A stretch of DNA of 33,633 bases from Clostridiales bacterium (GCA_012519565.1 JAAYPX010000049.1:1-33633), one strand, 5' to 3'; positions 12,406 to 33,633 are shown, counted from the stretch's first letter. Notes: a model not told the origin generated them from the sequence alone. Numbers and translations are program-made.

Positions 12406-12416
12406 TTTCATATATA

Positions 12417-12530: not shown

Positions 12531-14084
12531 TTACTGTAAGCATCTATAGTCAAATTTCTCAAAATCAGCTTTACCTCCAATCTCTTTGGTTGAGTATATA
12601 AACAATCCAATCCTACAACCAACAAAATGATCCAATCTAAAGTATAACTTATGAGTTACACCAAGCTTTATCCATTCTCCGTTACACTGATAATAAAATT
12701 CTGCAATATCTATATTATTCTCAAAATTGCCATAGACTTTTAATGTTACCCTATGGGTATCTATAGGAATTCTTTCATATTCTTTACCTGGCCTTGTAAT
12801 ATCAGAAGGTTTACCCCAGATATTGCTTTCCATGTCCATCTCTTTTCCTATCATAACTAGATAATATTTCCCTTCTTCTTTGGTCAGAGCAATTAGACCA
12901 TAACAGCCTTGTAATGCGCAAATACCTGCAAAATCTCCATCCTTAAGTTGTCTTCCATCAACTGTTACAATTGCCTGGCATGCAGGCCCCATAGCCCTCT
13001 GTGTTAATGTGTTTTGAGCTAATGTTAAATTATTACTTATTTTTCCTGTCTGAATACGCAATGCTCCTGGTTTTTCTGTGACTGTCCATAGATCATTATT
13101 GGGATTATGATTCCATTGCCATACTTTCTTTAAATATATCTTTCCGTCTTTATCTGCTTCATAGTTGAAATCATCACTGGCAAAGAGTGGCTCATAAACA
13201 TAACTTGGGTTTGTACTTTTAGTTTCAATGTAATGAGGTACCTTACCTCGAATACCAAATACAGGGAAGTTGTTTTCCCAATTCATAGGTACCAAAACAG
13301 GAATTCTTCCTACCGCACCATGATCTTGAAATAACATGGCATACCATTCTCCGCCAGGTGTATCCACTATCCCTCCTTGGGCTATACCAGCATTATGGTA
13401 GCCCATATCATCATCTAAAATATCCTTACCAATAAACTCACCTTCTAAGGATGATGCAACAAAGCAAGCTTCAGTTCTTCTTCTATTCCCGACAGATGGC
13501 CAATGAATTAAAAAGACATAGTACATTCCATTTATTTTATAAATATGGGCTCCCTCATAACCTAGGCCCACCTGCCCCTTATCTACTATAATTATTCGAT
13601 TCAGACCACCAGCCTTGGGGCCAGTAAGATCAGAATTTAATTCTAAAAGATGTATTTCTTTATTACCATATACTATGAATACCCTGTCATCATCATCAAA
13701 AAGTAGAGAAGAATCATGATAGAAACCCTGGATAATTTGCTTTTTCCACGGCCCCATAATATCCTCCGATTGATATAGATAGGTTTTTCCAGTATCATTG
13801 GCGGCAAAGCACACATAAAATTTGCCTTTATGATAACGAAGGGAGGCTGCCCACATACCTTTACCATAAATCCCTTTATCATCCTCTAATTTTTGGCCTG
13901 GAGTATCATCTAATGTTTCATAGACGTAAGTTGCAATCTCCCAATTAATCAAATCATAGGATCTAAGAATGACACCACCAGGCATAAAATGCATGGTGGT
14001 ACTAATCATATAATAGGTATCATCAACCCTTATAATATCTAAGTCAGGATAATCAGACCAAATGATTGGATTGTTTTTCCTCAT
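12531..14084 (-). CDS. GH43 family glycosidase with C-terminal beta-sandwich domain, no signal peptide
   Basis: NPIIWSDYPDLDIIRVDDTYYMISTTMHFMPGGVILRSYDLINWE, FYHDSSLLFDDDDRVFIVYG, GYEGAHIYKINGMYYVFLIHWP supply the GH43 catalytic triad regions; C-terminal concanavalin-like region. Confidence 0.93.
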   Translation of the reverse strand: MRKNNPIIWSDYPDLDIIRVDDTYYMISTTMHFMPGGVILRSYDLINWEIATYVYETLDDTPGQKLEDDKGIYGKGMWAASLRYHKGKFYVCFAANDTGKTYLYQSEDIMGPWKKQIIQGFYHDSSLLFDDDDRVFIVYGNKEIHLLELNSDLTGPKAGGLNRIIIVDKGQVGLGYEGAHIYKINGMYYVFLIHWPSVGNRRRTEACFVASSLEGEFIGKDILDDDMGYHNAGIAQGGIVDTPGGEWYAMLFQDHGAVGRIPVLVPMNWENNFPVFGIRGKVPHYIETKSTNPSYVYEPLFASDDFNYEADKDGKIYLKKVWQWNHNPNNDLWTVTEKPGALRIQTGKISNNLTLAQNTLTQRAMGPACQAIVTVDGRQLKDGDFAGICALQGCYGLIALTKEEGKYYLVMIGKEMDMESNIWGKPSDITRPGKEYERIPIDTHRVTLKVYGNFENNIDIAEFYYQCNGEWIKLGVTHKLYFRLDHFVGCRIGLFIYSTKEIGGKADFEKFDYRCLQ

Positions 14085-14121
14085 AATATTCTACCTTTCT
14101 ATATCTAAGAACTTATTTCCC

Positions 14122-15615
14122 CTATTGGAAATACCAATAATCTATTTTATATCCTTCTCCAAGATATACAAACACTAAGTCATGTACGCCTGTCACTCTT
14201 GTTAAAAGTTTTGTAGTTATTTCTTTATACTCTTCCTCTTCTGAGGGTTCGATTTCTATATAGCCTACAGCATCACCATTAGGATTATCTAGACGTATCT
14301 CAACTACTCCTGCCATAAACTTAGATGGCTTTACTTTTGCTGTAAAATAATTAGCACCTTGCTCTCCAAAATCTGCACCATAAATTGCAGTCCAGTCTCC
14401 AGTATGTATATCTGTTAATACCATATTGCCTGTTCCACCATTTTCAGCATTTTCATCATATAAGCTTGTAGAAACTCCTGCTGATGTACCTATTGTTTCA
14501 GCTTCAACCCTAGTATAAGGATTTAAGTTCTTAACTTGCTTTACACCAAGTTCCGTAGCTTCTATATTATTTATAGAATTATCCTCTGCAATAGATACAG
14601 AATCAATATTAGTGGATCGATAACCTCCAGACACACCCATTTTTGTTTCAACCAGTCTAGCGTGATAAGCTATATACAATTGATTGTCAAACTCAAACAT
14701 ACAGTGATGATTATTACCATTACTTCCAGGGAAGAATTCACCTGGGTTTTTAAGAATTGAACCCCTTAATGTAAATGGTCCCATTGGATTATCACTGGTC
14801 ATATAGATAATCTCACCACTATTAAACCCTAATTCCGCAGCAGCCTTAGGGTCCACATTAAAATTAGAGCAATATGAATAGTAATAAGTGTTGCCAATCT
14901 TATTGATACCTGAATCTTCAAATAAATAAGGTACTTCTAATGGAGCTGGATCTCCTGCCAAACTTATCATATCGTCTCCCAATTTTACAACCCTGGCAGT
15001 TCCAGGATTGGCATGGCTTTCACCAGGACCACCTCCAAAATATAAGTAGGCGTGGTCTCCATCTACCAATACCGCAGGATCGAATAACCAGGATACGTTA
15101 GCACAATTGGGAGTTGCTCGGGAAATCAAAGCACAGTTTAAAGGATCAATAAAGGGACCTGTGGGGCTGTCTGATGTTAAGACACCAATACCATTCCCTC
15201 CATTGGCAAAGTAGATAAAGAATTTATCTTTACCATCAACTTTTTTATAAGCTACTGCTGGAGCCCAGGAGTTGTTACCCCATTTTGCAGCACCATTAGG
15301 TCCAGCTGCCTTTATTGCACCATGATCAGTCCAATTCACCAAATCATCTGAAGATATTACATTAAGTGTATTTATTCTTCCATAACTATTATTCAGTATA
15401 TTACCCTCTTGGTCATATTCAAAAAGATCACCAGTCATATAGATATAGACCCTGCCTTCATAGACTATTCCATAGGGATCTGCTCCAAATCGCTGAGTAA
15501 TCAGTGGATTCTTATTACCAAATTCTTTATATCCTCTTGTTAGTTCAATATTTTTAAAATCATTTATGTACTTATTCATTATTTCATTTGATTTTTGCAT
15601 GTTTTCTATTACCAT
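14122..15615 (-). CDS. GH43 family glycosidase with C-terminal CBM6-like domain (arabinoxylan-active type), no signal peptide
   Basis: NPLITQRFGADPYGIVYEGRVYIYMTGD, WLFDPAVLVDGDHAYLYFGGG, YLFEDSGINKIGNTYYYSYC; C-terminus RVEAETIGTSAGVSTSL...DWTAIYGADFGEQGANYFTAKV...YKIDYWYFQ is CBM6-like. Start set to ATG 15615 with GGAG 6 nt upstream (ORF track start is a TTG). Confidence 0.9.
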   Translation of the reverse strand: MVIENMQKSNEIMNKYINDFKNIELTRGYKEFGNKNPLITQRFGADPYGIVYEGRVYIYMTGDLFEYDQEGNILNNSYGRINTLNVISSDDLVNWTDHGAIKAAGPNGAAKWGNNSWAPAVAYKKVDGKDKFFIYFANGGNGIGVLTSDSPTGPFIDPLNCALISRATPNCANVSWLFDPAVLVDGDHAYLYFGGGPGESHANPGTARVVKLGDDMISLAGDPAPLEVPYLFEDSGINKIGNTYYYSYCSNFNVDPKAAAELGFNSGEIIYMTSDNPMGPFTLRGSILKNPGEFFPGSNGNNHHCMFEFDNQLYIAYHARLVETKMGVSGGYRSTNIDSVSIAEDNSINNIEATELGVKQVKNLNPYTRVEAETIGTSAGVSTSLYDENAENGGTGNMVLTDIHTGDWTAIYGADFGEQGANYFTAKVKPSKFMAGVVEIRLDNPNGDAVGYIEIEPSEEEEYKEITTKLLTRVTGVHDLVFVYLGEGYKIDYWYFQ

Positions 15616-16055
15616 AATAAACTCCAACCCTTTCTACTTAAATATTACATGTCAATATGTTCTAACATCATATTTGCCAGTGGCCAACATATACCCCATC
15701 TTTTCCTATTTCAAAATATATTTTCTCATCAGTATCAAAAAGCATAGTTTATATGTATCTATCATCTTCTTGTCAATTTCTTCTTGAGACCTCCTGATTT
15801 CTAGAAGTAAATTGGGATATACTCCTGAAGAAGATCTTCCACCAGCTATATAAAGTTCTCCTTTTAAACAGGTAATATAAAATTTATTAGTAATTTATAC
15901 ATATTTTAACTATGCAACAGTTCCATTATCTTTTCTTATCATATATTGCCAAATAATAATCAATAATTGCTAATGACTCCACCTGGACCTTGTTTAGTCT
16001 AATATTAATTTAATATTAATCTGAATTTCTCCTTAGATGCATAGCAAGCTTTGAC

Positions 16056-16127
16056 GGGCACTTTATGCCCTAGGCAGATATCTTCATATCGCCTAAGTAG
16101 CGCATAATGTGAACAGAGTTCATATGC
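16056..16127 (-). ncRNA. Candidate structured RNA element made of three close hairpins between GH10 and GH43-CBM6 genes
   Basis: 16056-16070 GGGCA-ctttA-TGCCC-type stem; 16071-16095 TAGGC(a)GATAT-cttc-ATATCGCCTA; 16102-16127 GCATA(atg)TGAAC-aga-GTTCATATGC. No family match recognised. Confidence 0.4.
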
Positions 16128-16143
16128 CTGGAGGGCTTATTTA

Positions 16144-17109
16144 TTAGAAATCCATAATCTTATATAATACCTCTTTAGGCTTATGGCTCTCATCGAATAG
16201 TAAAGGCCAATTTTTTCGATTTCTAGCTGGGAAATGATCTAGCCAGGTGTAATCGTCTGCTACTCCCCAAATAGTAACACAATCAATAACATCCTTATAT
16301 TCTCGGAATACACGAAAAGCTCTTTCATATACATCTTCCTGCATTTTAATCATTTCCTTGGTGGGCCTCTCCAGGGATCTATGGTCTTGGAATTCAAACA
16401 TGGATACATCCATCTCAGTAACCTGGATTTTTACTCCTAGGCTTGCGTATAATTCTATGGCTCTTCTTAACTCATCCTCTGTAGGTGTTACTATATTAAA
16501 ATGACACTGCATACCAATACCATCTACAGGCACCCCCCTTTCTAACATGCCTTTAACTGTTTCATATATTTTCTGACTTTTTATTGGATTAGTTTCATTG
16601 TAATCGTTATAATATAACTTTGCTTCAGGAAGTACTTCTCTAGCTAAGTGAAATGAAATATCCATGAATTCTGGACCTAATATTCTGAGCCATTTACTGT
16701 CCCGTAACACTTCATCTTTTTTATCCTCGATAGCCTCATTAACAACATCCCAGCAGTATATATCTTTTTCATAACGCTTACCAATAGTAATCATATGATT
16801 TCTTAATACATCAATTAAACCTTCTTTATCAACATTCTCAAATATGTACCTAGGAGTCTGATTGTGCCAGACAAAGGTATGGCCTCTCATTGCAATATTA
16901 TTTTCTCTGGCAAATTGTACTATTTTATCAGCTTTAGTAAAGTCATATTCACCCTTTTCATTACACACACTACTATATTTCATTTCATTTTCGCATGTTA
17001 TGCTGTTAAAATGAGTAAGAATCACATCCTTATGTGAGTTTATTGTTCTTTCACTTACTGCAACTCCTACCTTAAAATAATCCTTATACTTTTCTTTTAA
17101 ACTTATCAT
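16144..17109 (-). CDS. GH10 endo-1,4-beta-xylanase, predicted intracellular
   Basis: 321 aa; acid/base DVVNEAI, nucleophile QVTEMDVSMFE, MRGHTFVWHNQTP, TIWGVADDYTW; starts MISLKEKYKDYFKVG with no signal peptide. Confidence 0.97.
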   Translation of the reverse strand: MISLKEKYKDYFKVGVAVSERTINSHKDVILTHFNSITCENEMKYSSVCNEKGEYDFTKADKIVQFARENNIAMRGHTFVWHNQTPRYIFENVDKEGLIDVLRNHMITIGKRYEKDIYCWDVVNEAIEDKKDEVLRDSKWLRILGPEFMDISFHLAREVLPEAKLYYNDYNETNPIKSQKIYETVKGMLERGVPVDGIGMQCHFNIVTPTEDELRRAIELYASLGVKIQVTEMDVSMFEFQDHRSLERPTKEMIKMQEDVYERAFRVFREYKDVIDCVTIWGVADDYTWLDHFPARNRKNWPLLFDESHKPKEVLYKIMDF

Positions 17110-18796: not shown

Positions 18797-19840
18797 TTAC
18801 ATTTTTAAACCAGTCTGATTTATACTCTCAACAAAGCCCTTCTGAGCTACTATATAGATAATCAGTAGTGGGATAATCGTCATAATCATTCCAGTGGAAA
18901 TCATCATTTGTGAATAAGCCTCTGATATTTTGCCAGATCCATACATGGCCAGATTGTAGTCGCTCAGTAATCCAGTTATTGATGTTAATCTTTTTGATAG
19001 TAATACAACTTTGCCAAGGAACATCTTGGAATAGAATGAATCTGTCCATTGCCAAACAAAAGCAAACAAAAAACATGATGTTATAACTGGTCTAGCGTCA
19101 GGAAGCATAATTCTTATAAATGTAGATAGATTACCACAACCATCGACATAAGCTGCCTCCTCAAGCTCCTTGGGCACTCCTCTAAAATATTGTCTTACTA
19201 TAAATATGTACAAACCATTCTTCAACCCCATACAACTGGCACTAAGTAGCAAATATGGTATAGTCGAGTTATGGAGATTAATAGTCGATCCTTTAAAAAA
19301 TTTGAATATACCAAAAATATCAAAAAATCTAAAATTAAGATATAAGGATGACATAATGGTTTGAGGTGGAACAACTATCACTAATAAAACACAGGCAAAC
19401 CAAAACCTTTTTAGGGGAAAATTAAATCTTGCGAACCCATATCCAACCAATGTACAGGATACAACTTGTAATATACTAACTAGGGTTGATATGCCAATGG
19501 TATTGCGCAGCGCCTTCCAATAGCCAATTAAATAGTTAATTAGTTTATAATTTTCTGTAGTAAAATTTCTTGGAACAACTATTACCGTAGAATCATATAA
19601 ATCTTTTTCTTTCATAAAGCTTAAGGATAGCTTGTTAATCAGTGGCTGTAATATTAAGAAGCACAAACCCATTATCAGGATTGCTCGTATTAACTTATAC
19701 AACTTACTCTTTACAATCTTCCTAAGAAGGTAACCACCAGATTTTTCATTTCTTATAGCAAACTCTCTCCATCTGTTTATGAGTGAGTTTTCTTGCACTT
19801 TCTTGCTAGTAATTGATTTTTCTGCTATTGTTTTATTCAT
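18797..19840 (-). CDS. CUT1 carbohydrate ABC transporter permease (MalG-like)
   Basis: Multiple TM helices and EAA-loop-like EEAAYVDGCGNLSTFIRIMLPDARPVI. Confidence 0.94.
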   Translation of the reverse strand: MNKTIAEKSITSKKVQENSLINRWREFAIRNEKSGGYLLRKIVKSKLYKLIRAILIMGLCFLILQPLINKLSLSFMKEKDLYDSTVIVVPRNFTTENYKLINYLIGYWKALRNTIGISTLVSILQVVSCTLVGYGFARFNFPLKRFWFACVLLVIVVPPQTIMSSLYLNFRFFDIFGIFKFFKGSTINLHNSTIPYLLLSASCMGLKNGLYIFIVRQYFRGVPKELEEAAYVDGCGNLSTFIRIMLPDARPVITSCFLFAFVWQWTDSFYSKMFLGKVVLLSKRLTSITGLLSDYNLAMYGSGKISEAYSQMMISTGMIMTIIPLLIIYIVAQKGFVESINQTGLKM

Positions 19841-20741
19841 AATAATACACCCACCTTGAAATAATTCCGCTAGATATGCCTATAATAAGGATAACAGCTA
19901 AAAAGTAAACCCAGGCCATAGCAGAACTTAATCCATAATCCAATTTCGGAGACATTGTTTCTGTAATCTTTTTCATAACATCGCTATCAGTTCTCATAAA
20001 AAAATCAACGATGGTATATACTAAATTTACTAATACTACGGAACTTACCATTGGCAATGTAATCTTCCAGAAACTTTCCCAAGATGTGCATCCTTCTATT
20101 TTAGCTGCCTCATACATATTTTTTGGTATAGTCTGTAATCCCGAAAGGAATATTATGATTTGGATACCAGATGCAATAACCACATCATAAACACTATTTA
20201 CGATGTTAAAGACAGTCGTCAAAAATCTTGTGCCTATACCACTGTTTGATAATATTTCCTCTAAAGCTGCTGTAATACTTGTATCATTCGTGTTTGCCTT
20301 TATATAGTCTGCAAGCCCCTCCAATAGACTATTGTTATATTCCAGTCCTACCAATACACCAGAAGATAGTATAACTGGAAGGAAAAACACTGCCCGTACC
20401 AATCCCCTTCCTTTGAACTCCTGGTTAAGTAGTAGAGCCATAAAAAAACTGATTATTAATGTAGCTGGAACACTAGTGGCCATTTTTGTTAACTCTTCCG
20501 TAAGGAAGCGGGCATATTCAGGATCCACTCGAAAGGCAGTTTTAAAGTTTTCCAAACCTATAAACTCCATTATAAAACCGCCCTGACCGCTTTGGATTAA
20601 AACTCTACTAAAACACATTCGAAACGATTCTATGAGTGGCAAAACCATGAAGGCAATAAAGCCTATAATAAATGGTGAGATGAATAAATACCCAGCAATT
20701 GCTTTCCTTTTTTTCAAATCCTTTTGCTTTGCTTTAGCCAT
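19833..20741 (-). CDS. CUT1 carbohydrate ABC transporter permease (MalF-like)
   Basis: GYLFISPFIIGFIAFMVLPLIESFRMCFS; EAA loop YEAAKIEGCTSWESFWKITLPMVS. Confidence 0.94.
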   Translation of the reverse strand: MAKAKQKDLKKRKAIAGYLFISPFIIGFIAFMVLPLIESFRMCFSRVLIQSGQGGFIMEFIGLENFKTAFRVDPEYARFLTEELTKMATSVPATLIISFFMALLLNQEFKGRGLVRAVFFLPVILSSGVLVGLEYNNSLLEGLADYIKANTNDTSITAALEEILSNSGIGTRFLTTVFNIVNSVYDVVIASGIQIIIFLSGLQTIPKNMYEAAKIEGCTSWESFWKITLPMVSSVVLVNLVYTIVDFFMRTDSDVMKKITETMSPKLDYGLSSAMAWVYFLAVILIIGISSGIISRWVYYYE

Positions 20742-20745
20742 ATCT

Positions 20746-23271
20746 TTACCTTCTTTCCACTATATAGTCTCTTGCAGGAACATTTAAACCGTTGTAGGCA
20801 AAATCTGTATTACTATAGTTGACATATACTTTAGTACCATCCTCATAACTAGTAACCATTACTTTCTCACTTAATATCTCGTGGTCAGTAATATATTGGT
20901 TAAAACAATGTCCTAATTCCTCTTCATATCTACTATAAATTTCATAAGCTTTGCCTATCCATTGGTCATAATCTGCTGCGAAAAATGATGTGTAATTTGA
21001 TTCCTGTAAAGTAGATACAGGCTCTTTCATAAATGTGAAAGATAGGCCAGCTCCTGTTTCAACACTTTTAAGAACCATATCTTGATAATTTTCCGCTAAA
21101 TTAACTGCCTTTCCTGAATAATTAACCAAACCATGTAGTGCAATGGAATAGAACGGAATCGCATGATCAATTATGTGATACATATTTCCCTTGAAATCCA
21201 TATTAGTTACAAAATCCACATATGGTATTACATAATCATTACCATGGTTGACTATTATACCTTTACCAGATGCAATAAGCTCCTGCATCTTCTCTTGCTG
21301 CATATTTATTACATCTTGCCTGCTTATATTGTTTTTGGGATTATAATCCCCACTGATGTAATGACCAATATCATAGAATGCTAATCCACTGGCAGCATAA
21401 CTATCTACGCTCCTCCAAAGATTATCAATAGCTTCTAAAGCCACCTGCGGCTTTAATAAGTAATGGTAATCCTGTAAAGTATCTACACCAAACCATAACC
21501 GGGAGAATGGTTTTAGTTTAACAATTTCTCTAGTGGCATATTTAGCTGCATCTCTATTGATTACAAAACCGTCAAAGAGAGTATTATCATATGCATATTC
21601 CATTCTACCTTCCAAGTACACGGGTACATTGAGTTCCTTGGATAATTGTATAAACTTCCTAAAGGCTTTTTCTCCACCTAATTCAGAAATTGGTTTAATA
21701 CGATTTAAATTTTTATGTTTAAGCCCACCGTTCATCCACCCAGAATATTTTATGGATAAATTTTTAAAGCCAAGATTATATAGGTCAGTGAGTAACTCAT
21801 ATGCTTCGTTATAAGTGGTCAGAGCTATTGGAACCGACATTGGTACCCCAAATTTTTGTTTTATTTTATCAATAGCCCCTAACACTGTTACATTAACAGG
21901 GGTACTGGTCTCCTCTTTCTTTTTCATATTAGGATAACGGTCCAATAAATATTGCCTATATTCAATAGCCATATCTACATAGTCATCGGAATTTAGAAAG
22001 CTATATCTTTGTTTAACTGATCCTTGGGGCTTATTTTTTTCATATAGAACAACTGCTGCTGCTGATTTGGCAGAAACATTCATCGGTGCAGAGTGGATTA
22101 CAGTATATGTAGCATTAGCGTAATTGTAACTGTTACTGCGGCCACTTACATCCGCCTCAATAGCAGCCACTGCTGCATAATCTTCTAGTATACATAGGAC
22201 GGAATTTCCATTCTTTGCAATACCGAAAACAGGAAAATCAGCCCTGCTTTCATCAATTAAAGCATTCCTCTTCAATGCGTCATCCCAACCATAAATATCG
22301 GAATAGTATGAATTCATGGTGTTTTTACCATTATTAAATGTTATTATTGAGCCATTACCCTCTGGTATTAAGAGATATCCCTCATCTTCTGTGCTACCAG
22401 CACCAAAGTAAGGAAGAACTTTCACATTTATCATAGGATAATAGTCATACCATTCCATTTCATCAAATGGTAGTTCAACAACTAGATCCTTATCTTCCAA
22501 TCGGTAAATTACAGATATGTTAAAAAATGGTATGTTTTTGTCCTTAGCTTTACTTCCAATTTGACTATCTAGCTCAAAATCCTCGTCAGTATAACCAGCT
22601 TGGGAAAATATAACCTCTAATTTTTGTCTTAAATGATCTGGAATACCATCTCGGACTGCATAAACAATCTCATTGGCTAAATTGGGATATAAGGATAATA
22701 ATTCTGATTTATTATCTGAAGCCCGCAGATTATTGATATCATACTTTCTATAGTACTCTTTAATCTGCCTTTGCCCGCTACTGTCCATTTTTTCTAAAAA
22801 AATATTAAGTCTGTCTTCAGAAATTGCTAAAGGTATCTTAAAAACTTTTTCCACTACACCTAAGGTATAGTTCACCTTAATGTAATCATTTCCCTGTTCA
22901 ATAGAATACTGTCCTCTTTCAATTGAATATTCATGATTATTGTATAAAGTATCAACACCATTTTCATTGCTGTATTTAAGTATTAGCGTCGATTGAAGTA
23001 GGCTTTTATTAAGGCCATTGGCTAGTGGATCATTATTACCATCCACTGGATTTGAATACCATACCGCATTACTGCGCTTATCTATTACTTGAAAACTTGT
23101 GCTGCTTGGGTCTAATATTAAACTTAAATTTTCATTCTCAAGTGTGTAAGAATTCTCTACTTCTGTATTGGAGAATGTTTCTAATACTTTTTCTTCTTCA
23201 TCAGTCTTATTACAACCGACCATTATGATTACTACCATTAAACAAATACTTACCAAACTATACTTTTTCAT
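20746..23271 (-). CDS. DUF5696-like lipoprotein (N-terminal beta-rich region, central TIM-barrel-like region, C-terminal beta domain)
   Basis: Lipobox MKKYSLVSICLMVVIIMVGC; 841 aa; segments NLSIKYSGWMNGGLKHKN, GFKNLSIKYSG, SGLAFYDIGHYISGDYNPKNNISRQDVINMQ suggest a glycosidase-like barrel. DUF number assigned from memory of the family and its ABC-transporter neighbourhood. Confidence 0.75.
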   Translation of the reverse strand: MKKYSLVSICLMVVIIMVGCNKTDEEEKVLETFSNTEVENSYTLENENLSLILDPSSTSFQVIDKRSNAVWYSNPVDGNNDPLANGLNKSLLQSTLILKYSNENGVDTLYNNHEYSIERGQYSIEQGNDYIKVNYTLGVVEKVFKIPLAISEDRLNIFLEKMDSSGQRQIKEYYRKYDINNLRASDNKSELLSLYPNLANEIVYAVRDGIPDHLRQKLEVIFSQAGYTDEDFELDSQIGSKAKDKNIPFFNISVIYRLEDKDLVVELPFDEMEWYDYYPMINVKVLPYFGAGSTEDEGYLLIPEGNGSIITFNNGKNTMNSYYSDIYGWDDALKRNALIDESRADFPVFGIAKNGNSVLCILEDYAAVAAIEADVSGRSNSYNYANATYTVIHSAPMNVSAKSAAAVVLYEKNKPQGSVKQRYSFLNSDDYVDMAIEYRQYLLDRYPNMKKKEETSTPVNVTVLGAIDKIKQKFGVPMSVPIALTTYNEAYELLTDLYNLGFKNLSIKYSGWMNGGLKHKNLNRIKPISELGGEKAFRKFIQLSKELNVPVYLEGRMEYAYDNTLFDGFVINRDAAKYATREIVKLKPFSRLWFGVDTLQDYHYLLKPQVALEAIDNLWRSVDSYAASGLAFYDIGHYISGDYNPKNNISRQDVINMQQEKMQELIASGKGIIVNHGNDYVIPYVDFVTNMDFKGNMYHIIDHAIPFYSIALHGLVNYSGKAVNLAENYQDMVLKSVETGAGLSFTFMKEPVSTLQESNYTSFFAADYDQWIGKAYEIYSRYEEELGHCFNQYITDHEILSEKVMVTSYEDGTKVYVNYSNTDFAYNGLNVPARDYIVERR

Positions 23272-23286
23272 CTCCTGCCCTCCTAA

Positions 23287-23949
23287 TCAGTAGAAACGAA
23301 AGACAATTTCTTTATATAATGATATGAAATATGCAACAGTGTCACTGACTAAGCTGAAAAATAGTAATAATACGAATATGATTAACATCATTCCAACTAT
23401 GGTAGCAATTATTGTGATAACAGCTTTGCCTAAGGAATATTCATGTATCATCATAGCGGCACTCATGATTAACATTACACACCAAATTCTAGACAGACTG
23501 GCAAAAAAGTAATAGAATGCTCCTTCTTCTACTGTCATAAGATTACTTATAAATATCATAGGTAATTGAATTAATACATAAGGGGTAAGGGCATATCCCA
23601 TGGCCATATATATTCCTTTCAAGGTACCTTTACCATCGAAAAGTGTTGTCAATCCCCAGTTAGCAACACATCCAATAATAATCGGTGCAATAAATCCAAT
23701 TATTTCTTCAAAAATATTGATATACTCCCACTGCACTTTTATAAAGAGAAAACTTGTAAATTGAAGTCTCCAGATCTTTGTTATCAAAGATAGGATAATA
23801 ATTATATTTGCAGCCCCCAAAGATCCTCTTTTCTCATGGGTTAAATCCCAAAAACCGTCCAATGGATGAGTTATCACATATAGCGAATAGCGTAGTGTCT
23901 TACCCAGATGTTTCATCGTATCTGTGCTAAAAGCTGTAGCTATTTTCAT
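23287..23949 (-). CDS. Yip1-domain integral membrane protein
   Basis: HPLDGFWDLTHEKRGSLGAANIIIILSLI, GFIAPIIIGCVANWGLTTLFDGKGTLKGIYMAMGYALTPYVLIQLP are Yip1-like; several TM segments; ATGA overlap with upstream gene. Confidence 0.82.
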   Translation of the reverse strand: MKIATAFSTDTMKHLGKTLRYSLYVITHPLDGFWDLTHEKRGSLGAANIIIILSLITKIWRLQFTSFLFIKVQWEYINIFEEIIGFIAPIIIGCVANWGLTTLFDGKGTLKGIYMAMGYALTPYVLIQLPMIFISNLMTVEEGAFYYFFASLSRIWCVMLIMSAAMMIHEYSLGKAVITIIATIVGMMLIIFVLLLFFSLVSDTVAYFISLYKEIVFRFY

Positions 23950-25424
23950 GCTTCACTCACCTCTCTCTTAATTTTCTTTACTCTTGCACTTATAGTAGGA
24001 GCAGCAATAGCAATTACAACTATTGTAAATATCCAGGAGATATTTCTCTCAATCCATTCTTTACGATATAGTTGGTATGCCTTAGAATAATTATTATCAT
24101 CCCACTTATATTTAAAGTATTTCATCGCCTCTTCATATCTTTTTTGCCTTAATAAGGAACGTCCAATGCCAATATAGGCTAGATCATAGTTTCCATTAAA
24201 CATAAGAACGCGTTCCCAATACTCCGCTGATAAATCGTAATTACCCTTTTTATATTCTTCTAATGCATCATTAATAAGCTCTCCATAACTTGTTAAGGTA
24301 AAGATTGTTATTCCTAAATTTTTAGTATCCAATACTAATAAATCCGTACCCATATGGTCTATAGCAACAGGATACTGTAAATACCCAATTTTATTACCAA
24401 GTCCCCCAAAGGCATAAAGCAGATTACCCTGATTATCATAGCCAAAGATACGCCCTCTAGTCCTATCAAGTGCATAGTAAGTATCATTATCTAGAGCTGT
24501 TACATCCACTAATTTTGAAGAACCAGTAACCCCTCCTGCATCTCCCCACTCTACATCACCTATTGGTGGGAAATAACCATTTTTAATTAAAATATCTTTC
24601 CCCATAGTATTTAATTTTCGAATAGGCTTTGCTTGATCACTTATTAAATCATACTCTTCAAATACTGATGTGGTAGCATAGACAAATCCATCCTTGTCAA
24701 TGGCAATATTGTTATATTCGGTAGGTACAAATTGTACCATCTGAGATCTTTGGATTTCTGTTGAAATCTGTTTCCATAAGTAATCAATCATATTAAACTT
24801 TACGGTATTAGCCCCCATATAACCAGTAAACTCACCCTTATTATCAAATACCAATACACCCTTGTTATAATTCTTGACTAAAACAAATATTCTTCCTAAT
24901 CGATCTACTACTACTTTCTGTGGAAAAAAGTCCAAGGAAGGATCTATGGTTTCATCCTGGGGTTGATGCATTTCTTTCACTAATCTATATTGAGAATCGA
25001 TTTGGACTATCCTCTGATTATTGGTATCACATATATACATATCTCCATTACCTGACACGAATATATCATGAGGAGCAGCTAAGGAATTGACTGCTGTATC
25101 TCCATCAAATTCACTGAATTCATTGATAACCACAAATTGATCAGCATTTTTTTCTATGATAACAATTCGATTATTACCTGTATCACATACATAAATAGTA
25201 TTATCTTTTACAAATACTCCTTGCGGATCTTTGAAATTACCTATACCTAATGTATTACCGGTTATAAAATATGATGGTGTATATGCATCAGGAGATTTCA
25301 TAGCATCGCCAAAATAATCATATGTGTAGGTATACATACTATCCATGGCCTTTACATTCATTGATGGAGATATTAATAATATCAAGATACAGAAAAGAGC
25401 AGTTTTTATACTTTTTTCTCTCAT
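23946..25424 (-). CDS. Secreted/membrane-anchored NHL-repeat beta-propeller protein with TPR-like segment and C-terminal TM helix
   Basis: Signal peptide; repeats FKDPQGVFVKDNTIYVCDTGNNRIVII, LAAPHDIFVSGNGDMYICDTNNQRIVQID, LQYPVAIDHMGTDLLVLDT; TPR-like YKKGNYDLSAEYWERVLMFNGNYDLAYIGIGRSLLRQKRYEEAMKYFK; TM ISWIFTIVVIAIAAPTI. Confidence 0.87.
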   Translation of the reverse strand: MREKSIKTALFCILILLISPSMNVKAMDSMYTYTYDYFGDAMKSPDAYTPSYFITGNTLGIGNFKDPQGVFVKDNTIYVCDTGNNRIVIIEKNADQFVVINEFSEFDGDTAVNSLAAPHDIFVSGNGDMYICDTNNQRIVQIDSQYRLVKEMHQPQDETIDPSLDFFPQKVVVDRLGRIFVLVKNYNKGVLVFDNKGEFTGYMGANTVKFNMIDYLWKQISTEIQRSQMVQFVPTEYNNIAIDKDGFVYATTSVFEEYDLISDQAKPIRKLNTMGKDILIKNGYFPPIGDVEWGDAGGVTGSSKLVDVTALDNDTYYALDRTRGRIFGYDNQGNLLYAFGGLGNKIGYLQYPVAIDHMGTDLLVLDTKNLGITIFTLTSYGELINDALEEYKKGNYDLSAEYWERVLMFNGNYDLAYIGIGRSLLRQKRYEEAMKYFKYKWDDNNYSKAYQLYRKEWIERNISWIFTIVVIAIAAPTISARVKKIKREVSEA

Positions 25425-25434: not shown

Positions 25435-26301
25435 TTATTCCTTAATACCTGAAGTTGCCATCGTTTGAAGAATATTACTTTGAGATATTATGAATGTACA
25501 TATAGGTACTATCATCATAATTAATGTTACCGCTGAACCTACACCCGCTCTTGCGATACCTCCAGCAATAATCTGTGATAAAGCATATGGCAAAGTCTTC
25601 ATTTCTTCGGAGTAGATAAAATTGGATGCCCTAGTATTCCACAAGCCTTGAACTGAGAGTATAATTAAAGTTAGAGAGGCTGGCTTAACCAGTGGCATAA
25701 CAATCCTTGTATATATTTTCCACTCTTTTGCTCCATCTATCTTAGCTGCATCCATCAATGTATCAGGTATGCCATCCATGAACTGCCTCATCAGGAAAAA
25801 CCCAAGGGGTGCAGCAAATGCTGGTACTATAACAGCCCATATGGTATTAACCCAACCAATCTTAGACATAACTATGTAGTTTGGAATGGCAGTAACATAA
25901 CCGTTGAACATTAGAGCAGTAACTACTAAATTACTGAACATTTTACCGCCAGGAAAATCGTATTTTGCAATTACATATGCACCCATAGAAGAAATCAAGA
26001 GATGACCCGCTGTACCTACTACCGTAATAAAAGCTGTGTTAAAAAAGTATCTTGAGAAGGGCACCCATGACTTGCTTAAAATTACAAATAAATCCTGAAA
26101 GTTATCAAGCGTAGGGTTTTGAACAAATAACCTTGGAGGATAAACGAATATCTCATCCAAAGGTTTAAATGCACTGTTTATGGCATATACCAGAGGAAAT
26201 GCCATAAACATGCCAAATAGTGTTAAGACAAAATAGATACAATAATCCCCTGCCCTTGAGCGATTCGGTCTTCTTCTTTTAAAATGTTTTCTTTTCTTCA
26301 T
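25435..26301 (-). CDS. CUT1 carbohydrate ABC transporter permease (MalG-like)
   Basis: TM profile and EAA loop MDAAKIDGAKEWKIYTRIVMPLVKPAS. Confidence 0.94.
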   Translation of the reverse strand: MKKRKHFKRRRPNRSRAGDYCIYFVLTLFGMFMAFPLVYAINSAFKPLDEIFVYPPRLFVQNPTLDNFQDLFVILSKSWVPFSRYFFNTAFITVVGTAGHLLISSMGAYVIAKYDFPGGKMFSNLVVTALMFNGYVTAIPNYIVMSKIGWVNTIWAVIVPAFAAPLGFFLMRQFMDGIPDTLMDAAKIDGAKEWKIYTRIVMPLVKPASLTLIILSVQGLWNTRASNFIYSEEMKTLPYALSQIIAGGIARAGVGSAVTLIMMIVPICTFIISQSNILQTMATSGIKE

Positions 26302-26326: not shown

Positions 26327-27265
26327 TCAGGTCCCAACCCTTCGCAACATGGCCTGTATTGCTTTATTACTTAAGATCATTGTTAAAAACAATAGAGTTG
26401 CTATTGCGGAAGCATATCCCATCTCAAATCTTATAGAGCCATAATCAATCAAGTGGGTTACTACCGTTTCTGCTGCATAGTCAGTACTTGGAAATCCAGC
26501 TAATTGCATTGTTACATCCGCAACACCAAAGGACTGTGTAATGGACATTACCGCACCAAACATCAGCATAGGTTTCATGTTAGGCAGAGTAATAAACCAT
26601 AATTCTTGCCAACGATTTCTTACACCATCTATATATCCTGCCTCAAACATGGTCTGATCAATTCCTTGCAATCCAGCGACAAAACCAAGGAAACCTGTGC
26701 CCAAACTCATCCATAGGATAACCACCATAATAACCGGCATCATATACTTAGGATTGGTAAGCCAAAGTATAGGCTCATTTATCAGTCCAAGATTTAATAA
26801 AAATGCATTAACATAACCATAGGCGTCACCAGAAAACATGATAGACCAGATCAGATATACCTGACCAGATATAGTAGGGGCATAAAATACAATTACAGCA
26901 AATGCTCTTATATATCTTGGTAGCTCATTTATAAACCATGCAAACAAAAATGCTGCTATATAGCCAATCGGTCCCGTAATTGCTGCAATTAAAAATGTGT
27001 TTTTAATTGCTATTAAAAATACATCATCTGCCAAAATCAAGTTCGAATAGTTTCTTAATCCTACAAAATTAGGCGGTTCTAAAACATTATAATATGTAAA
27101 ACTTAATACCAAAGAAGATACCACAGGAATAATATAGAATAAGAAAAATAGAATAGCGTAAGGAGCAAGAAACAGATAGAATGTCTTTGAACGCTTTACC
27201 ATCTTCCAAGTAATAGCAGCATCTCTTTTCTTTTTTCTTATATACTTCTGTACAAATGTACCCAT
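26327..27265 (-). CDS. CUT1 carbohydrate ABC transporter permease (MalF-like)
   Basis: FYLFLAPYAILFFLFYIIPVVSSLVLSF; EAA loop FEAGYIDGVRNRWQELWFITLPNMKPM. Start set to ATG 27265 behind GAGGGGG (ORF track start is a TTG). Confidence 0.93.
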   Translation of the reverse strand: MGTFVQKYIRKKKRDAAITWKMVKRSKTFYLFLAPYAILFFLFYIIPVVSSLVLSFTYYNVLEPPNFVGLRNYSNLILADDVFLIAIKNTFLIAAITGPIGYIAAFLFAWFINELPRYIRAFAVIVFYAPTISGQVYLIWSIMFSGDAYGYVNAFLLNLGLINEPILWLTNPKYMMPVIMVVILWMSLGTGFLGFVAGLQGIDQTMFEAGYIDGVRNRWQELWFITLPNMKPMLMFGAVMSITQSFGVADVTMQLAGFPSTDYAAETVVTHLIDYGSIRFEMGYASAIATLLFLTMILSNKAIQAMLRRVGT

Positions 27266-27276
27266 TTTATACCCCC

Positions 27277-30168
27277 TCAATGAATATCTAAGCCAAACTC
27301 CAAACGCTTTTTGCTAATTTCTTCGTTAATTTTTCTAGAATAATCTAGAAGTGTTTCTCTTGCCTCTGTATTCTGATTTATAACTTTTCTAATGGCATTG
27401 GTAACATGCCTGGAAGTATAATATCCACCAGCTACTTCTTTAAATCCTTTTGTCCATTGCCATTGTTCCTTAATAGCTTCCATCTGCCTGCTACTCCACG
27501 CTAACTGCTCAAAAGCTACTAAGTTTGCAGTTGCATATCGAGCAGATGCACCAAGAATACTCTCCATTTCACGGCCAAATCTTACTTGTGTATCAGCACT
27601 TACCCACCATTTTAGGAACTCCCAAGCCTTTTGTTTCTTAGCATCATCCTTCTGTTTTAACATAATGGAACATGTCACCCCAGAGATTCCCGATCGATCA
27701 ATATTTCCATCTGGCTGTACAGTACCTGGTAGTAATGTGAAGTCCCAAAGTCCTCTGATTTCTGGTGCAAATACCACTAGTGTATTATAAGTACCATAAT
27801 TTTGTATTCCCAGAGGGATTTCACCCGAGCGGAAACGGTTTACGAAATCAAAAACTGTTGGTAGACTATACTGATTATATAATTTAGTATAAAGTTCAAA
27901 GGCTTTTACTCCACTTTCACTATCTATAACGGTAGATTTACCTTCATCATCATATAATGATCCACCACTTTGATATAACATTGAATAATAGGCCGACAAA
28001 TCATTACTAACTGCAGAGGGAACTGCCACATTCATGTTGTTTTGCTGTATTGTAGGTAAAATATCTATTAACTCATCCCAAGTCTGTGGAACATCCAATC
28101 CCAGTTCCTCCATAATGTCCGTACGATAAAATAGAAGGTTAAAGCTCTGAGTTTCTGGAACACCATAGATACCTCCCTCAAACTTAAAAGGTTCATAGGA
28201 ACTATAATGGAACTCTGCTAATACATCTTTATAATCTTCAAACTGGGTTATATCCTCTACTGCATTACGTAATGCATAGTTGACCGGCTCCCCTTGACCA
28301 AGGGAAAGAGCAATATCAGGACCTGTTCCTGCAATTACAGCATTAAGTAAAGTACCCGCTTCAATCAACTTAACATTTACTTTAATACCGGTCTGATGGG
28401 TAAAACTATCATCTATCATTGTTTTTATAACAGTACTCTGATCACGACCAGTTGTAATCCAAACTTCAACAGCTTCATCTTTATCATATACATCACCTAC
28501 AGAATCATAGTCCATAATAAAAGATGTTATAAAGGACTTGACTTCATGTACAAATTTAGCTAAAAAGGTTTCATGTACTGGATCAGGTTCTGCATTAAGG
28601 CCTGTTATTGTTATACTGTCAATATCTAAAGGCGATTCACTTAAAGTTAATACGGTTGTTCCCAGAGAACTTATATTACTTTTAAAATTCGCTAAGGTTT
28701 TTGGAATTTTGTCTGGTCGCTTCACTAGCTTCTCTAATTGTTCTGCCAATGTCTGTGCAGTCGAAACCTGGCTGGCTTTCTCACCTGCATAGGTAACCAT
28801 TTCATCCACAAGCTTATATAAACGTTTACTCTCTAAATCCATGGCGGTAATTACTTCAGGATAGACTTTATGAATATTGTAATCACGATATCGATCCGGA
28901 TTTGTTCCTGTTAAGACTATAATTTTTCTATAGATTGCATTTAGACGGTATATAATATCTTCCAGTTCATTAAGTATTTGCCCTAAAGAACCAAGAGTCA
29001 CTTCTAAACGTAGGGAATGTTCTCCTTTAGACAAATAAAACTCATATGGTACTCCCTTCTCATCTGCTAAAGTCATACCTTCCCATTCATTACTATATTT
29101 AAAACTTATATCTTTTACTTCTTCAAAAGGTATTACACCATCAATATATAGACTTCTATTTGATACAAAACCCCTTTGGTAATTTTGTCTACCTTTTATT
29201 GATATTTTATAGTAACCATCTTCTGGCACATCGAACTTCCATTCAATCCATTGTCCTGGTACTCTCCATGAATAACCACCACCCATATTCAAACGTATCT
29301 TGGCTACGCTATACGGCTCTGTTTTAGCTGATGAACGGTCAAAGGTTGCATAGAGGGATGGTGATGATCTCACATATGAATCCTCTCCTTGTATTACCTT
29401 TTTGTAATTACTCGAGATATCTGATAAAGCAACTTCTGGTGTCTGCTTCCTATACTCTGTATAAGTAGGCCTCTCTTTAATCCCACATAGAGTAAGAGTC
29501 TTAATTATTATTGGTTCATTGACAGCTTCCAAAGCAATGGTATTTCTTCCTTTTTCCAAGAAAAACATATAGGGCTCTGCGAAATAACCCATATAGTCTT
29601 TAAAATATGCTTCTGTCCAATTAGGCATCTCTATCTGCCCCGGTCTAATATCATTCCCTTGATTATCTTGCTTAACTTCACTCCGGTCAGTCCAGAGTCT
29701 AGTAAAAGTTAAAGTATCAGCACCGACAAAAGGTATATTGCCATTGATGTAAAATTTTCTCTCTATATCCACACCACGGGATTCCACAGGATAATATTCC
29801 ATATAGACCTGATACAAGCCACTTTCAGGTATATCTACCTGCCACTCCACATAAGAATCCTCCAAAGTATGTAATACATTTTGAACTCCTTCGTGGTACT
29901 GTAATATCTCAACCCCTTCTGCATAGCTGTATTTAGTTATATTTACTGGAATATCTTGAGTAGCCAAGGAAGCATCCGTATGATTATCAAGATATTTCAT
30001 ATATGTATTATCCCGGCCTATCCCTACTACTTCTGCTTTCAAATCATCTATACCTTCATACTTGTGGCTAAAAGTTTCAATGTCTTTATTAGGAATGAGC
30101 AAAAGGATTAGTACAGCGACCAATATCAGAATTATCCCTATTACTTTTTTGTTTCTAATAAATTTCAT
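27277..30168 (-). CDS. Membrane-anchored fused solute-binding protein: two N-terminal CBM-like beta-sandwich repeats, helical linker, C-terminal family 1 SBP domain
   Basis: N-terminal TM/signal MKFIRNKKVIGIILILVAVLILLLIPN without a lipobox Cys; related segments EWQVDIPESGLYQVYMEYYP...YINGNIPF and EWKFDVPEDGYYKISIKGRQ...YIDGVIPF; SBP domain from EVWITTGRDQSTVIKTMIDDSF. Start set to ATG 30168 with GGAGA upstream. Confidence 0.85.
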   Translation of the reverse strand: MKFIRNKKVIGIILILVAVLILLLIPNKDIETFSHKYEGIDDLKAEVVGIGRDNTYMKYLDNHTDASLATQDIPVNITKYSYAEGVEILQYHEGVQNVLHTLEDSYVEWQVDIPESGLYQVYMEYYPVESRGVDIERKFYINGNIPFVGADTLTFTRLWTDRSEVKQDNQGNDIRPGQIEMPNWTEAYFKDYMGYFAEPYMFFLEKGRNTIALEAVNEPIIIKTLTLCGIKERPTYTEYRKQTPEVALSDISSNYKKVIQGEDSYVRSSPSLYATFDRSSAKTEPYSVAKIRLNMGGGYSWRVPGQWIEWKFDVPEDGYYKISIKGRQNYQRGFVSNRSLYIDGVIPFEEVKDISFKYSNEWEGMTLADEKGVPYEFYLSKGEHSLRLEVTLGSLGQILNELEDIIYRLNAIYRKIIVLTGTNPDRYRDYNIHKVYPEVITAMDLESKRLYKLVDEMVTYAGEKASQVSTAQTLAEQLEKLVKRPDKIPKTLANFKSNISSLGTTVLTLSESPLDIDSITITGLNAEPDPVHETFLAKFVHEVKSFITSFIMDYDSVGDVYDKDEAVEVWITTGRDQSTVIKTMIDDSFTHQTGIKVNVKLIEAGTLLNAVIAGTGPDIALSLGQGEPVNYALRNAVEDITQFEDYKDVLAEFHYSSYEPFKFEGGIYGVPETQSFNLLFYRTDIMEELGLDVPQTWDELIDILPTIQQNNMNVAVPSAVSNDLSAYYSMLYQSGGSLYDDEGKSTVIDSESGVKAFELYTKLYNQYSLPTVFDFVNRFRSGEIPLGIQNYGTYNTLVVFAPEIRGLWDFTLLPGTVQPDGNIDRSGISGVTCSIMLKQKDDAKKQKAWEFLKWWVSADTQVRFGREMESILGASARYATANLVAFEQLAWSSRQMEAIKEQWQWTKGFKEVAGGYYTSRHVTNAIRKVINQNTEARETLLDYSRKINEEISKKRLEFGLDIH

Positions 30169-30289
30169 AATTACATCTCCTGTTGTTAATATAGTATACA
30201 ATTACCTTTTCAACGCAAATGATGTACACAATACCACGAGTGCTTTTTTAGTTTAAGCAATTACATGAAGTTAGTAATATGAGTTACCT

Positions 30290-32449
30290 TTATGAGATTT
30301 CAAGTCTTTGTTCTGCCCTTACCTGCAACTTAAAAGGGGTCTTCCCTGTCAATTCAATACTTCTTTTATCAGGTTGAGAATCTCCTACATATATTGTATA
30401 TAAGCCTTCCTCAACGTATCTTTTACCATCTGTACCACAAAGACTAAAGGCACTTATTGGAAGATTAATACTCATTTCCTTCTTCTGCCCAGGAGCTAAT
30501 TCTACTTTTTTGAATGACTTTAATTGTGGATTTGGTGTACCTGATCGTTCAGCTTTAATATAAATTTGAACCGTATCTCTGGCTTTGTAATTTCCTGTGT
30601 TATAAATAGTAAATTTAATATTAACTCCCTGGTCATTAACAATCTCTGTATCAGCCTGAACATTATCAATTTTGAATTTTGTATAGGATAAACCATATCC
30701 AAATGGGTATAAGGGTTCTTTGCTCATATACCTATAGGTTCTTTCTTTCATAGAGTAATCAGTAAAATCTGGTAGCTCCTCTGTGGTCTTATAGAAAGTA
30801 ATAGGAAGTTTACCTTCTGGTGAAAAATCTCCAAAGATCGCTTCAGCTATTGCTCTTCCACCCTGTGCTCCAGGATACCATCCCTGTATAATGGCAGGAA
30901 TATGATCCTGAGCCCAGTTAATTGCAAGTGCACTTCCAGACAGCATAACCAAAATAGTAGGTTTACCACTTTCATATATGGTCTTTAAAACTTCTTCCTG
31001 TATCCCTGGTAAATTTAAATCTCTTTTGTCACCGCTCGCATACTGATTCCCCTCATCACCTTCTTCTCCTTCTAAACTTGGATCTAGTCCCATACATGCA
31101 ATAACCACATCACTCATTTCACACACTGATTTTACTTCAGAGAGACGGTCATTTCTTACCGCCAGATTCTCTATACTATCCTTATGCAAATGACATCCTT
31201 CGGAAAAGTATACTCTGACATCTTGACCTAAGTAATCTTGAATTCCTTCACTAATGGTAATATAACGAGAAGCTGTACCTTCATAATTGCCAACCAAGGC
31301 CCTGCGATTATTGGCGTTTGGTCCTATAATACCTATACTTTTTATTTGGTTTTTATCAAGGGGAAGCAAGTTATTCTCATTTTTAAGTAGTACTAAGGTT
31401 TTTCTAGCAGCATCAAGATTTTTCTCTCTCATCTCTTGTAAATCTACTATGTCATAAGTTATGTTACTAAAAGGCACTTTACTGGGTTCATCAAACAAAC
31501 CAAGTTTCATTCGAGTTGTGAAAAGTCTCTCTACTGCTGTTGTTATCTGCTCTTCTGAAACTAATCCTTGCTCTACAGCCTTCTCTAGATATAAGAACAA
31601 ATTACCACAATTTAAGTCACAACCGTTATTCACTGCCAGTGCCACTGACTCTACTGGTCCCTCTGTAACACCATGATACTTATAAAAATCTTTGATAGCC
31701 CAGCAATCCGAAACTACGTGTCCCTCAAATCCCCAATCTCCACGGAGAATATCTTGTAATAAAAATTTACTTCCACAACATGGCTCACCATTGGTTCTAT
31801 TATAAGCCCCCATAACAGCTTCTACTTTAGCTTCTTTAACACAGGCTTCAAATGCTGGTAAATAAGTTTCATACAAATCCTGTTTTGAAACTTCTGCATT
31901 AAAACTATGACGTAAATCTTCTGGACCAGAATGAACTGCAAAATGTTTTACGCAGGCCGCAGATTTTAGATAATTTTCATCATCTCCTTGTAAACCATTT
32001 ATATAACTGACACCCAATCTAGAGGAAAGATAAGGATCTTCTCCAAAAGTTTCATGCCCCCTTCCCCAACGAGGATCGCGAAAAATATTAACATTAGGTG
32101 ACCAAAAGGTGATTCCCTTATATATATCCGTATCTCCAAAACGCTGCTGCATATTAAATTTGGCTCTTCCCTCGGTTGAAACAGCATCACCGATACTTTC
32201 AATAAGCTCTTCATCAAAGGTTGCCGCCAAACCTATTGCTTGTGGAAAAATAGTAGCCACACCAGCTCTAGCAACGCCATGTAGTGCTTCATTCCACCAA
32301 TTATAAGAATTCACATTTAGTCTTTTAATAGCTGGCGCCTTATGAAGCATCTGTGAACATTTCTCTTGAAGAGTCATCTTACCTACAAGCTCTTTTGCTC
32401 TTTCCTTATATTTATTAATTTTTTCAGTATTATGAATTAGTTTTCTCAT
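30290..32449 (-). CDS. GH3 family beta-xylosidase/beta-glucosidase, no signal peptide
   Basis: GITFWSPNVNIFRDPRWGRGHETFGEDPYL, ACVKHFAVHSGPEDLRHSFNAEVS, nucleophile motif VVSDCWAIKDF; C-terminal FnIII-like domain YPFGYGLSYTKFKI. Confidence 0.96.
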   Translation of the reverse strand: MRKLIHNTEKINKYKERAKELVGKMTLQEKCSQMLHKAPAIKRLNVNSYNWWNEALHGVARAGVATIFPQAIGLAATFDEELIESIGDAVSTEGRAKFNMQQRFGDTDIYKGITFWSPNVNIFRDPRWGRGHETFGEDPYLSSRLGVSYINGLQGDDENYLKSAACVKHFAVHSGPEDLRHSFNAEVSKQDLYETYLPAFEACVKEAKVEAVMGAYNRTNGEPCCGSKFLLQDILRGDWGFEGHVVSDCWAIKDFYKYHGVTEGPVESVALAVNNGCDLNCGNLFLYLEKAVEQGLVSEEQITTAVERLFTTRMKLGLFDEPSKVPFSNITYDIVDLQEMREKNLDAARKTLVLLKNENNLLPLDKNQIKSIGIIGPNANNRRALVGNYEGTASRYITISEGIQDYLGQDVRVYFSEGCHLHKDSIENLAVRNDRLSEVKSVCEMSDVVIACMGLDPSLEGEEGDEGNQYASGDKRDLNLPGIQEEVLKTIYESGKPTILVMLSGSALAINWAQDHIPAIIQGWYPGAQGGRAIAEAIFGDFSPEGKLPITFYKTTEELPDFTDYSMKERTYRYMSKEPLYPFGYGLSYTKFKIDNVQADTEIVNDQGVNIKFTIYNTGNYKARDTVQIYIKAERSGTPNPQLKSFKKVELAPGQKKEMSINLPISAFSLCGTDGKRYVEEGLYTIYVGDSQPDKRSIELTGKTPFKLQVRAEQRLEIS

Positions 32450-32788: not shown

Positions 32789-33587
32789 CTATCCAAATTG
32801 CCAATAATCAAATTTAAAAAGATTTCCCGAAGAATCCCCTTTAAATACAAAGAATAGATTATGTACACCAGTAGCACCATTAACATTTGTAGTGACAGTC
32901 ACCCAATTGTTACAATCCCCTGTTGAAGGTACTTCCACTTTTCCAATCAAGGGACCATCTGGTCGATCTAGATGAAGTTCAATGGTTCCGCCCATTGAAT
33001 CACTGGATACACAGGCTGAAAATTCTTTTGCACCGTCATCACCAAAATTAACATTAGATACTCTAATATAATCCCCGTCATCAATACTACATACATTCAT
33101 TCCCCCATTGGAACAAGGTTCCGTCTTAACACCAAAGGACCATGATATGGTTTCTGCCTCATTCCTTATATAGGGATTTAAAAAGTCCACCGGCTTTACT
33201 CCTTCTAGCGACATATTCATGGTAGGAATTGTTCCATCTTCATTGTAGTCAAATTCTTCTACGCAGACTGAACGAGTAAAACCACTACCCCCTGGCAAAG
33301 CACCATTATGATAGAAGAAGTAGGATTTACCCTTATAATCAACAATGCCTGGATGATTGGTGAAGCTACCACCTTGAGTAGGCATTATAATTCCTCTAAA
33401 AGTCCATGGTCCAGTCGGATTGGGACTGGTGGAGTAGGCAATATTTTCTGGTATTCCACTGGCTGCATAAATCATATAGTATAAACCATTGCGTTTATAA
33501 AACCAAGGGGCCTCCTCGTATAAAGTATGCCTTTTGGGATCTCCATCTCGCTTACCGAAACTTTCCTCATCTATGGGTACCTGTACA
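32789..33587 (-). CDS. GH43 glycosidase with C-terminal CBM6-like domain, 5' truncated; bases beyond 33587 are a fold-back
   Basis: TLYEEAPWFYKRNGLYYMIYAASGIPENIAYSTSPNPTGPWTFRGIIM, NHPGIVDYKGKSYFFYHNG, and CBM6-like RNEAETISWSFGVKTEPC...LFKFDYWQFG. The ORF-track Met lies inside the palindromic arm. Confidence 0.88.
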
Positions 33588-33633
33588 ATCCCAAAAGGCA
33601 TACTTTATACGAGGAGGCCCCTTGGTTTTATAA
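33495..33633. repeat. Perfect terminal inverted repeat (fold-back) at the window edge, probable artefact
   Basis: 33495-33540 TTATAAAACCAAGGGGCCTCCTCGTATAAAGTATGCCTTTTGGGAT is the exact reverse complement of 33588-33633; 47-nt spacer; the repeat ends on the last base. Confidence 0.97.

Follow-up and report, generated by a model that had tools for sequence, protein, structure and literature searches.

A stretch of 33,633 nucleotides from a Clostridiales bacterium (GCA_012519565.1 JAAYPX010000049.1:1-33633), called the window here in its full length, carries three genes for envelope proteins between two pairs of permease genes of ATP-binding cassette (ABC) transporters. The three encode an NHL-propeller/TPR protein, a Yip1-family membrane protein and a DUF5696 lipoprotein, and they belong to a fixed, modular cassette found in many Bacillota families and in treponemes, among gut bacteria that feed on plant fibre. 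With confidence a little better than even, we lean towards a reading in which the three proteins are accessory parts of a CUT1-type ABC importer that has several components and takes up large plant oligosaccharides; such an importer would share its ATPase and use DUF5696 as a glycan receptor and NHL-Yip1 as a scaffold. DUF5696 was not mentioned in the open literature searched, and no open paper connected Yip1, NHL and carbohydrate ABC transporters (subscription journals were outside the scope of both searches), which suggests that an importer of this kind is undescribed in those papers. In B. hungatei and B. proteoclasticus, xylan and pectin induce CUT1 solute-binding proteins (SBPs) and permeases, the cassette proteins being unnamed in the passages concerned.

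A recurrent cassette with two permease pairs

The DNA belongs to a draft genome of 2.77 Mb that is about 90% complete. Nine genes form a compact block on a single strand, with intergenic spacing of -8 to +52 bases; PA and PB are our labels for the first and second permease pair.

27277-30201, minus strand: SBPA, 974 amino acids (Pfam SBP_bac_8 1.7e-25, Golvesin_C 1e-4)
26327-27280, minus strand: PA_N, permease of the generic pair; EAA loop conserved; paralogues 51-54% identical
25435-26301, minus strand: PA_C, permease of the generic pair; BPD_transp_1 2.5e-14; EAA loop; paralogues 50-57% identical
23946-25424, minus strand: NHL propeller, TPR and C-terminal transmembrane (TM) segment, 492 amino acids (Pfam, AlphaFold2, Foldseek)
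23287-23949, minus strand: Yip1-family membrane protein, 220 amino acids (PF04893 1e-11)
20746-23271, minus strand: DUF5696 lipoprotein with a predicted GH129/GH101-type fold, 841 amino acids (PF18952 9.8e-185)
19833-20741, minus strand: PB_N, permease of the substrate-specific pair; EAA loop conserved; paralogues 34-36% identical
18797-19840, minus strand: PB_C, permease of the substrate-specific pair; BPD_transp_1 1.2e-13; EAA loop
17269-18744, minus strand: SBPB, lipoprotein-type SBP (SBP_bac_1 1.1e-17; signal with LFAAC)

A first-pass annotation of this DNA had placed the three open reading frames of the trio at these positions on the minus strand, with an ATGA overlap between the NHL and Yip1 genes, and both observations hold (junction sequence GCATGAAA). 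It was also right that permease pairs flank the trio, but it ended the first pair at 27265, whereas the actual end is 27280, with a TTG start chosen. SBPA and SBPB were overlooked as members of the block, as was the recurrence of the block in the genome.

Six DUF5696 matches, of which two are truncated where a contig stops, point to about six copies of the cassette in the host genome, and five of the six Yip1 matches directly adjoin DUF5696, either as a separate gene or as an NHL fusion. The sixth Yip1 match (contig C198) was rejected, being below the cut-off and lying among ABC/FtsX-like permease genes. One copy adjoins a rhamnose isomerase and a sugar kinase (L008), another a PcRGLX-type rhamnogalacturonan lyase, a GH2 and a GDSL esterase (L010), and a third a GH2 (L011). 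The cassette is therefore general rather than xylan-specific, and the xylan context first proposed applies to the window copy but not as a rule.

Gene profiles made from the host copies were used to scan 40 loci around DUF5696 matches in same-genus and other Bacillota genomes and a further 80 named loci from Lachnospiraceae (including Butyrivibrio), Oscillospiraceae, Christensenellaceae and Treponema; 126 DUF5696-centred loci were covered in total. All eight genes from SBPA to PB_C were found near full length in 97 of the 126, and the core of NHL, Yip1, DUF5696 and the PB pair was incomplete only at contig ends. Eight loci hold the core alone, without SBPA and PA (L093, L094, L095, L098, L099, L101, L108 and L109); in all others, missing cassette genes coincide with contig ends. 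Gene order can change, the SBPA-PA block following the core in L107 and L212 and NHL-Yip1 following PB in L231. Chance adjacency of the trio was rejected in view of the conserved order in host paralogues, other Bacillota families and Treponema. It had been set beforehand that trios occurring apart from importers would count against an association with CUT1 importers; 0 of the 126 loci had the trio without a permease pair, contig ends excepted, and the association stands. The original description of a trio between two importers nevertheless understated the arrangement, since the trio is tied to PB in every locus, while PA and SBPA form a separable and more conserved unit.

Co-occurrence was examined in an even draw of 250 genomes of the phylum, the same set for all profiles. 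DUF5696 scored above the cut-off in 20 genomes and the NHL profile in 21, and the N-terminal half of SBPA was strong in 22; the NHL and SBPA types were both present in 20 of the 20 DUF5696 genomes (hypergeometric P about 1e-28). The surplus genomes, without DUF5696 above the cut-off, were G283 for NHL and G144 and G195 for SBPA. Weak DUF5696 matches in other genomes were rejected as members, as those translated were GH13-type enzymes, a DUF6259 protein or true GH129. Pairwise distance matrices of the eight cassette genes correlate at 0.89-0.97. In five genomes of 2.2-3.0 Mb (G102, G122, G176, G206 and G080), DUF5696 matches number 8 to 22 per genome, which is an uncommonly large commitment to one system.

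The cassette was also seen in nine Treponema/Spirochaetaceae bins (L144, L158, L160, L163, L165, L168, L174, L175 and L179), and its presence in diderms beyond Bacillota suggests horizontal transfer. In a single-contig genome (L102, G193:C1), PA_C is split into two open reading frames separated by about 1.6 kb, perhaps through an insertion.

The NHL-Yip1 and DUF5696 proteins

Pfam searches confirmed the identities first given to the trio, with E-values of 8e-13 for NHL (48 bits against a cut-off of 20, with weaker TPR matches), 1e-11 for Yip1 (45.4 bits against 28.6) and 1e-184 for DUF5696. Their predicted placement in the envelope likewise agreed: the NHL protein, described as a secreted propeller anchored at its C-terminus, has an N-terminal hydrophobic signal and a TM segment at 462-480; the Yip1 protein, described as multi-TM, has four TM segments predicted in the window copy; and DUF5696, the proposed lipoprotein, carries a short signal resembling that of lipoproteins, whose Cys20 lies in a relaxed lipobox, MVGC. 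Some DUF5696 paralogues carry an N-terminal TM anchor in place of this signal.

The AlphaFold2 model of the NHL protein (pLDDT 84.9) shows a propeller followed by TPR helices, the propeller being closest by Foldseek to the NHL domains of TRIM71 and Thin. NHL and Yip1 are a single open reading frame of roughly 680-840 amino acids in many lineages, in which a TM scan gives a signal, the propeller and TPR, one TM segment and then five more. From this layout Yip1 would start on the inner side, with the propeller on the outer face. The Yip1 protein probably has about five TM segments, given four predicted in the window and five in the fused relatives, and NHL and Yip1 may well act as one subunit, for which the fusion is the best indirect evidence. 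The Yip1 profile found no relative in the PDB. Cassette Yip1 shares its sequence family and five-TM layout with the Yip1/Yif1 family (PF04893), but it goes with an extracellular NHL-TPR protein, in many lineages as a fusion, and is linked to an ABC importer, and a trafficking role is not expected.

DUF5696 is, as modelled, a divergent member of the GH129/GH101 glycosidase fold. A profile of 60 DUF5696 sequences matched DagB/ZgGH129 in the PDB (5opq, 8rzg, 8rzk) with E about 5e-16 and NagBb (5wzn) with 0.002. Foldseek with the AlphaFold2 model (pLDDT 87.5) returned 5opq (E 2.2e-34, TM-score 0.69 by target length), 5wzn (3.6e-26) and then GH101 structures. Like ZgGH129/DagB 3,6-anhydro-D-galactosidase and NagBb, DUF5696 has a beta-sandwich, a TIM barrel and a C-terminal beta domain; unlike them, it lacks the acid/base glutamate and the counterpart of DagB E531 and is tethered and linked to an importer.

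In NagBb we take the acid/base residue to be E478. This residue and E517 of DagB, whose acid/base role is taken from the GH129 literature, align with N675 of the window protein by phmmer, hhalign and MAFFT. Among 123 DUF5696 sequences, position 675 is N in 65 and E in 8; the canonical pair D634 and E675 occurs once (1/123), and a pair of D residues nine times (9/123). DagB activity requires each of D202, D486, E517 and E531, and D435 of NagBb corresponds to D486 of DagB (PMC5698469). The nucleophile column falls by motif at D634, although one alignment places NagBb D435 at A631 instead; E531 of DagB aligns to T689. W512, N514, R651, N678 and Y680 are conserved around the barrel, and a binding cleft may therefore persist. 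Because the acid/base glutamate is lost, the prediction is that DUF5696 binds glycans without cleaving them, and most members would be pseudo-glycosidases; DUF5696 as a plain enzyme was rejected on the same ground. The idea that the trio presents or trims oligosaccharides thus divides, presenting being the best-supported reading and trimming finding no support in the residues.

A gene in a same-order genome, L033:868-2751, is a true GH129 (E 3e-253 to NagBb) that exceeds the cut-off of the DUF5696 and GH101 Pfam models and falls just below that of the GH129 model, and it makes a useful bridge between the DUF5696 and GH129 families. A single in-frame TAG was found in two DUF5696 genes, L007:8516-10906 (G000:C165), with the frame otherwise intact, and G122:C81:41367-43262; these could be young pseudogenes or sequencing errors.

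Permease modules and the proposed importer

The EAA coupling loops (EAA-G-LP motif) are conserved in all four permeases, and both SBPs match SBP_bac_1/8 in Pfam. SBPA, present in every complete cassette, has an N-terminal hydrophobic anchor, a beta-rich, CBM-like N-terminal half with weak Golvesin_C/CBM35 matches (a paralogue gives CBM_35 at 1.4e-4) and a C-terminal solute-binding domain; its profile matches sugar SBPs in the PDB, best Lin1841. Among the three complete host copies, identity is 50-57% for PA, 31-40% for PB, 33-39% for NHL, 33-35% for Yip1 and 24-28% for DUF5696. Three genomes (G102, G176 and G206) each combine three complete cassettes with a single standalone SBPA-PA unit and with five to eight loci that are core-only or truncated by contig ends, and G080 also has one standalone unit. 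The neighbours of the G102 unit (L219) do not look carbohydrate-like when their sequences are inspected without a Pfam scan. The standalone SBPA proteins from G102, G176 and G206 group together in a single clade with full support; the arrangement is therefore a stable one. These gene counts suggest that a generic SBPA-PA unit serves several substrate-specific cores, an organisation that, if real, would be out of the ordinary among ABC importers.

The cassette contains no MalK/MsmX-type ATPase. One OB_MalK match was found in the host genome, on contig C125, in an open reading frame that has an ABC-ATPase start and runs off the contig end, and we infer that this ATPase serves the cassette. In B. 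subtilis, several importers draw their energy from MsmX (PMC5730181). The MsmX-powered CUT1 oligosaccharide importers of Gram-positive bacteria resemble the cassette in their EAA permease pairs, SBPs and neighbouring carbohydrate-active enzyme (CAZyme) genes, and probably in relying on a shared ATPase encoded elsewhere; the cassette differs in having two permease pairs, an SBP fusion of about 980 amino acids, three extra envelope proteins and a fixed order.

In the mechanism that we propose, secreted enzymes encoded elsewhere would free decorated oligosaccharides, which DUF5696 and SBPB would catch at the membrane, the tethered, GH129-derived DUF5696 gripping the glycan in its former active-site cleft without cleavage. 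NHL-TPR and Yip1 would form one membrane scaffold, the propeller and TPR lying outside and Yip1 within the membrane; this scaffold would hold DUF5696 and the SBPs on PB in a physical complex, while PA and the large SBPA would contribute a generic, shareable part. The sugar would then be translocated by PB, PA or both, with ATP hydrolysed by the MsmX-type ATPase. As Treponema carriers are diderm, a function at the inner membrane seems more plausible than attachment of cells to food. The cargo of the window copy would be decorated xylo-oligosaccharides or glucuronoarabinoxylan fragments, degraded inside the cell by the enzymes encoded alongside; since GH10, GH115, GH43 and GH3 of this locus lack signal peptides, the branched oligomers are expected to cross the membrane whole and to be broken down only afterwards.

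8348-17109, minus strand: xylan enzymes GH115, GH43, GH43-CBM6 and GH10 (Pfam), without N-terminal signals by hydropathy
11527-12405, plus strand: AraC regulator amid the xylan enzyme genes
30290-32449, minus strand: GH3 of beta-xylosidase type, part of the substrate context

If correct, this would give DUF5696 its first role and a Yip1-family protein a concrete bacterial one, and it would account for the uptake of large decorated plant oligosaccharides by Lachnospiraceae and treponemes of the gut and rumen. The cassette would also be a marker for predicting substrate loci, occurring in up to about 20 copies per host beside different CAZymes.

A more tentative extension, which we hold to be possible but rather less probable than the importer itself, is a Gram-positive counterpart of the utilisome: a dual-permease ABC supercomplex in which an SBPA-PA engine, sometimes present once per genome, is common to several cores of NHL-Yip1, pseudo-GH129 receptor, PB and SBPB. 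The SusCD utilisomes of Bacteroidetes (PMC7618045) gather tethered surface glycan proteins on a transporter, and the analogy would be one of working only: the cassette has an ABC importer and no TonB system or outer-membrane barrel, and no common ancestry is shown.

Alternative readings and neighbouring genes

Several points weigh against the importer reading. The 80 named loci were picked by similarity to the window DUF5696, so their uniform order is not independent evidence and the diverse set of 40 weighs more. A common species tree inflates the distance-matrix correlations, and operon conservation together with mirror-tree agreement could mean joint inheritance only. The nucleophile column is still D in 93 of the 123 DUF5696 sequences, and the protein could use an unrecognised acid. 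The candidate ATPase gene sits at a contig end in a genome about 90% complete. It is conceivable, if unlikely, that two independent ABC importers and three helpers were merely co-inherited in an operon and form no joint complex, as the EAA loop is intact in both permease pairs, each with an SBP beside it, and the SBPA-PA unit is able to stand alone. Against this, NHL-Yip1, DUF5696 and PB stay together across wide divergence and through the rearrangements of SBPA-PA (L107, L212, L231), and NHL is fused to Yip1 in many lineages.

We would give a similarly low probability to a catalytically active DUF5696, a GH129/GH101-clan glycosidase that would use a rearranged acid to trim oligosaccharides at the membrane ahead of their import. 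The clear match of fold and profile, the retained D634 and the conserved polar and aromatic barrel residues W512, N514, R651 and Y680 count in favour of such an enzyme, but three independent alignments put N675 at the acid/base site, and the acidic pairs at 634 and 675 are rare. DagB lost its activity when any one of its four candidate acids was mutated, D486 and E517 among them (PMC5698469), and E531 corresponds to T689 in the window protein. Least probable, and to our minds doubtful indeed, is that NHL-TPR-Yip1 and DUF5696 form a sensor at the cell surface, which gates transport or reports on it instead of building the importer. NHL propellers do form extracellular receptor domains, as in PknD (PDB match 1rwi), and ordinary CUT1 importers, to our knowledge, need no such trio, which counts in favour of a sensor; yet Pfam found no cytosolic signalling domain, Yip1 is mostly membrane, and a separate AraC-type regulator is already in the locus. 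The importer reading remains the one that we prefer.

An Rfam scan of the window gave no matches. A GH43-CBM6 gene at 32789-33601 has probably lost its 5' part at the contig end. At the opposite end, 423-8259 encodes a MacB-like exporter with two ABC ATPases, an FtsX-type permease of 941 amino acids and three tandem HlyD/biotin-lipoyl-type adaptors.

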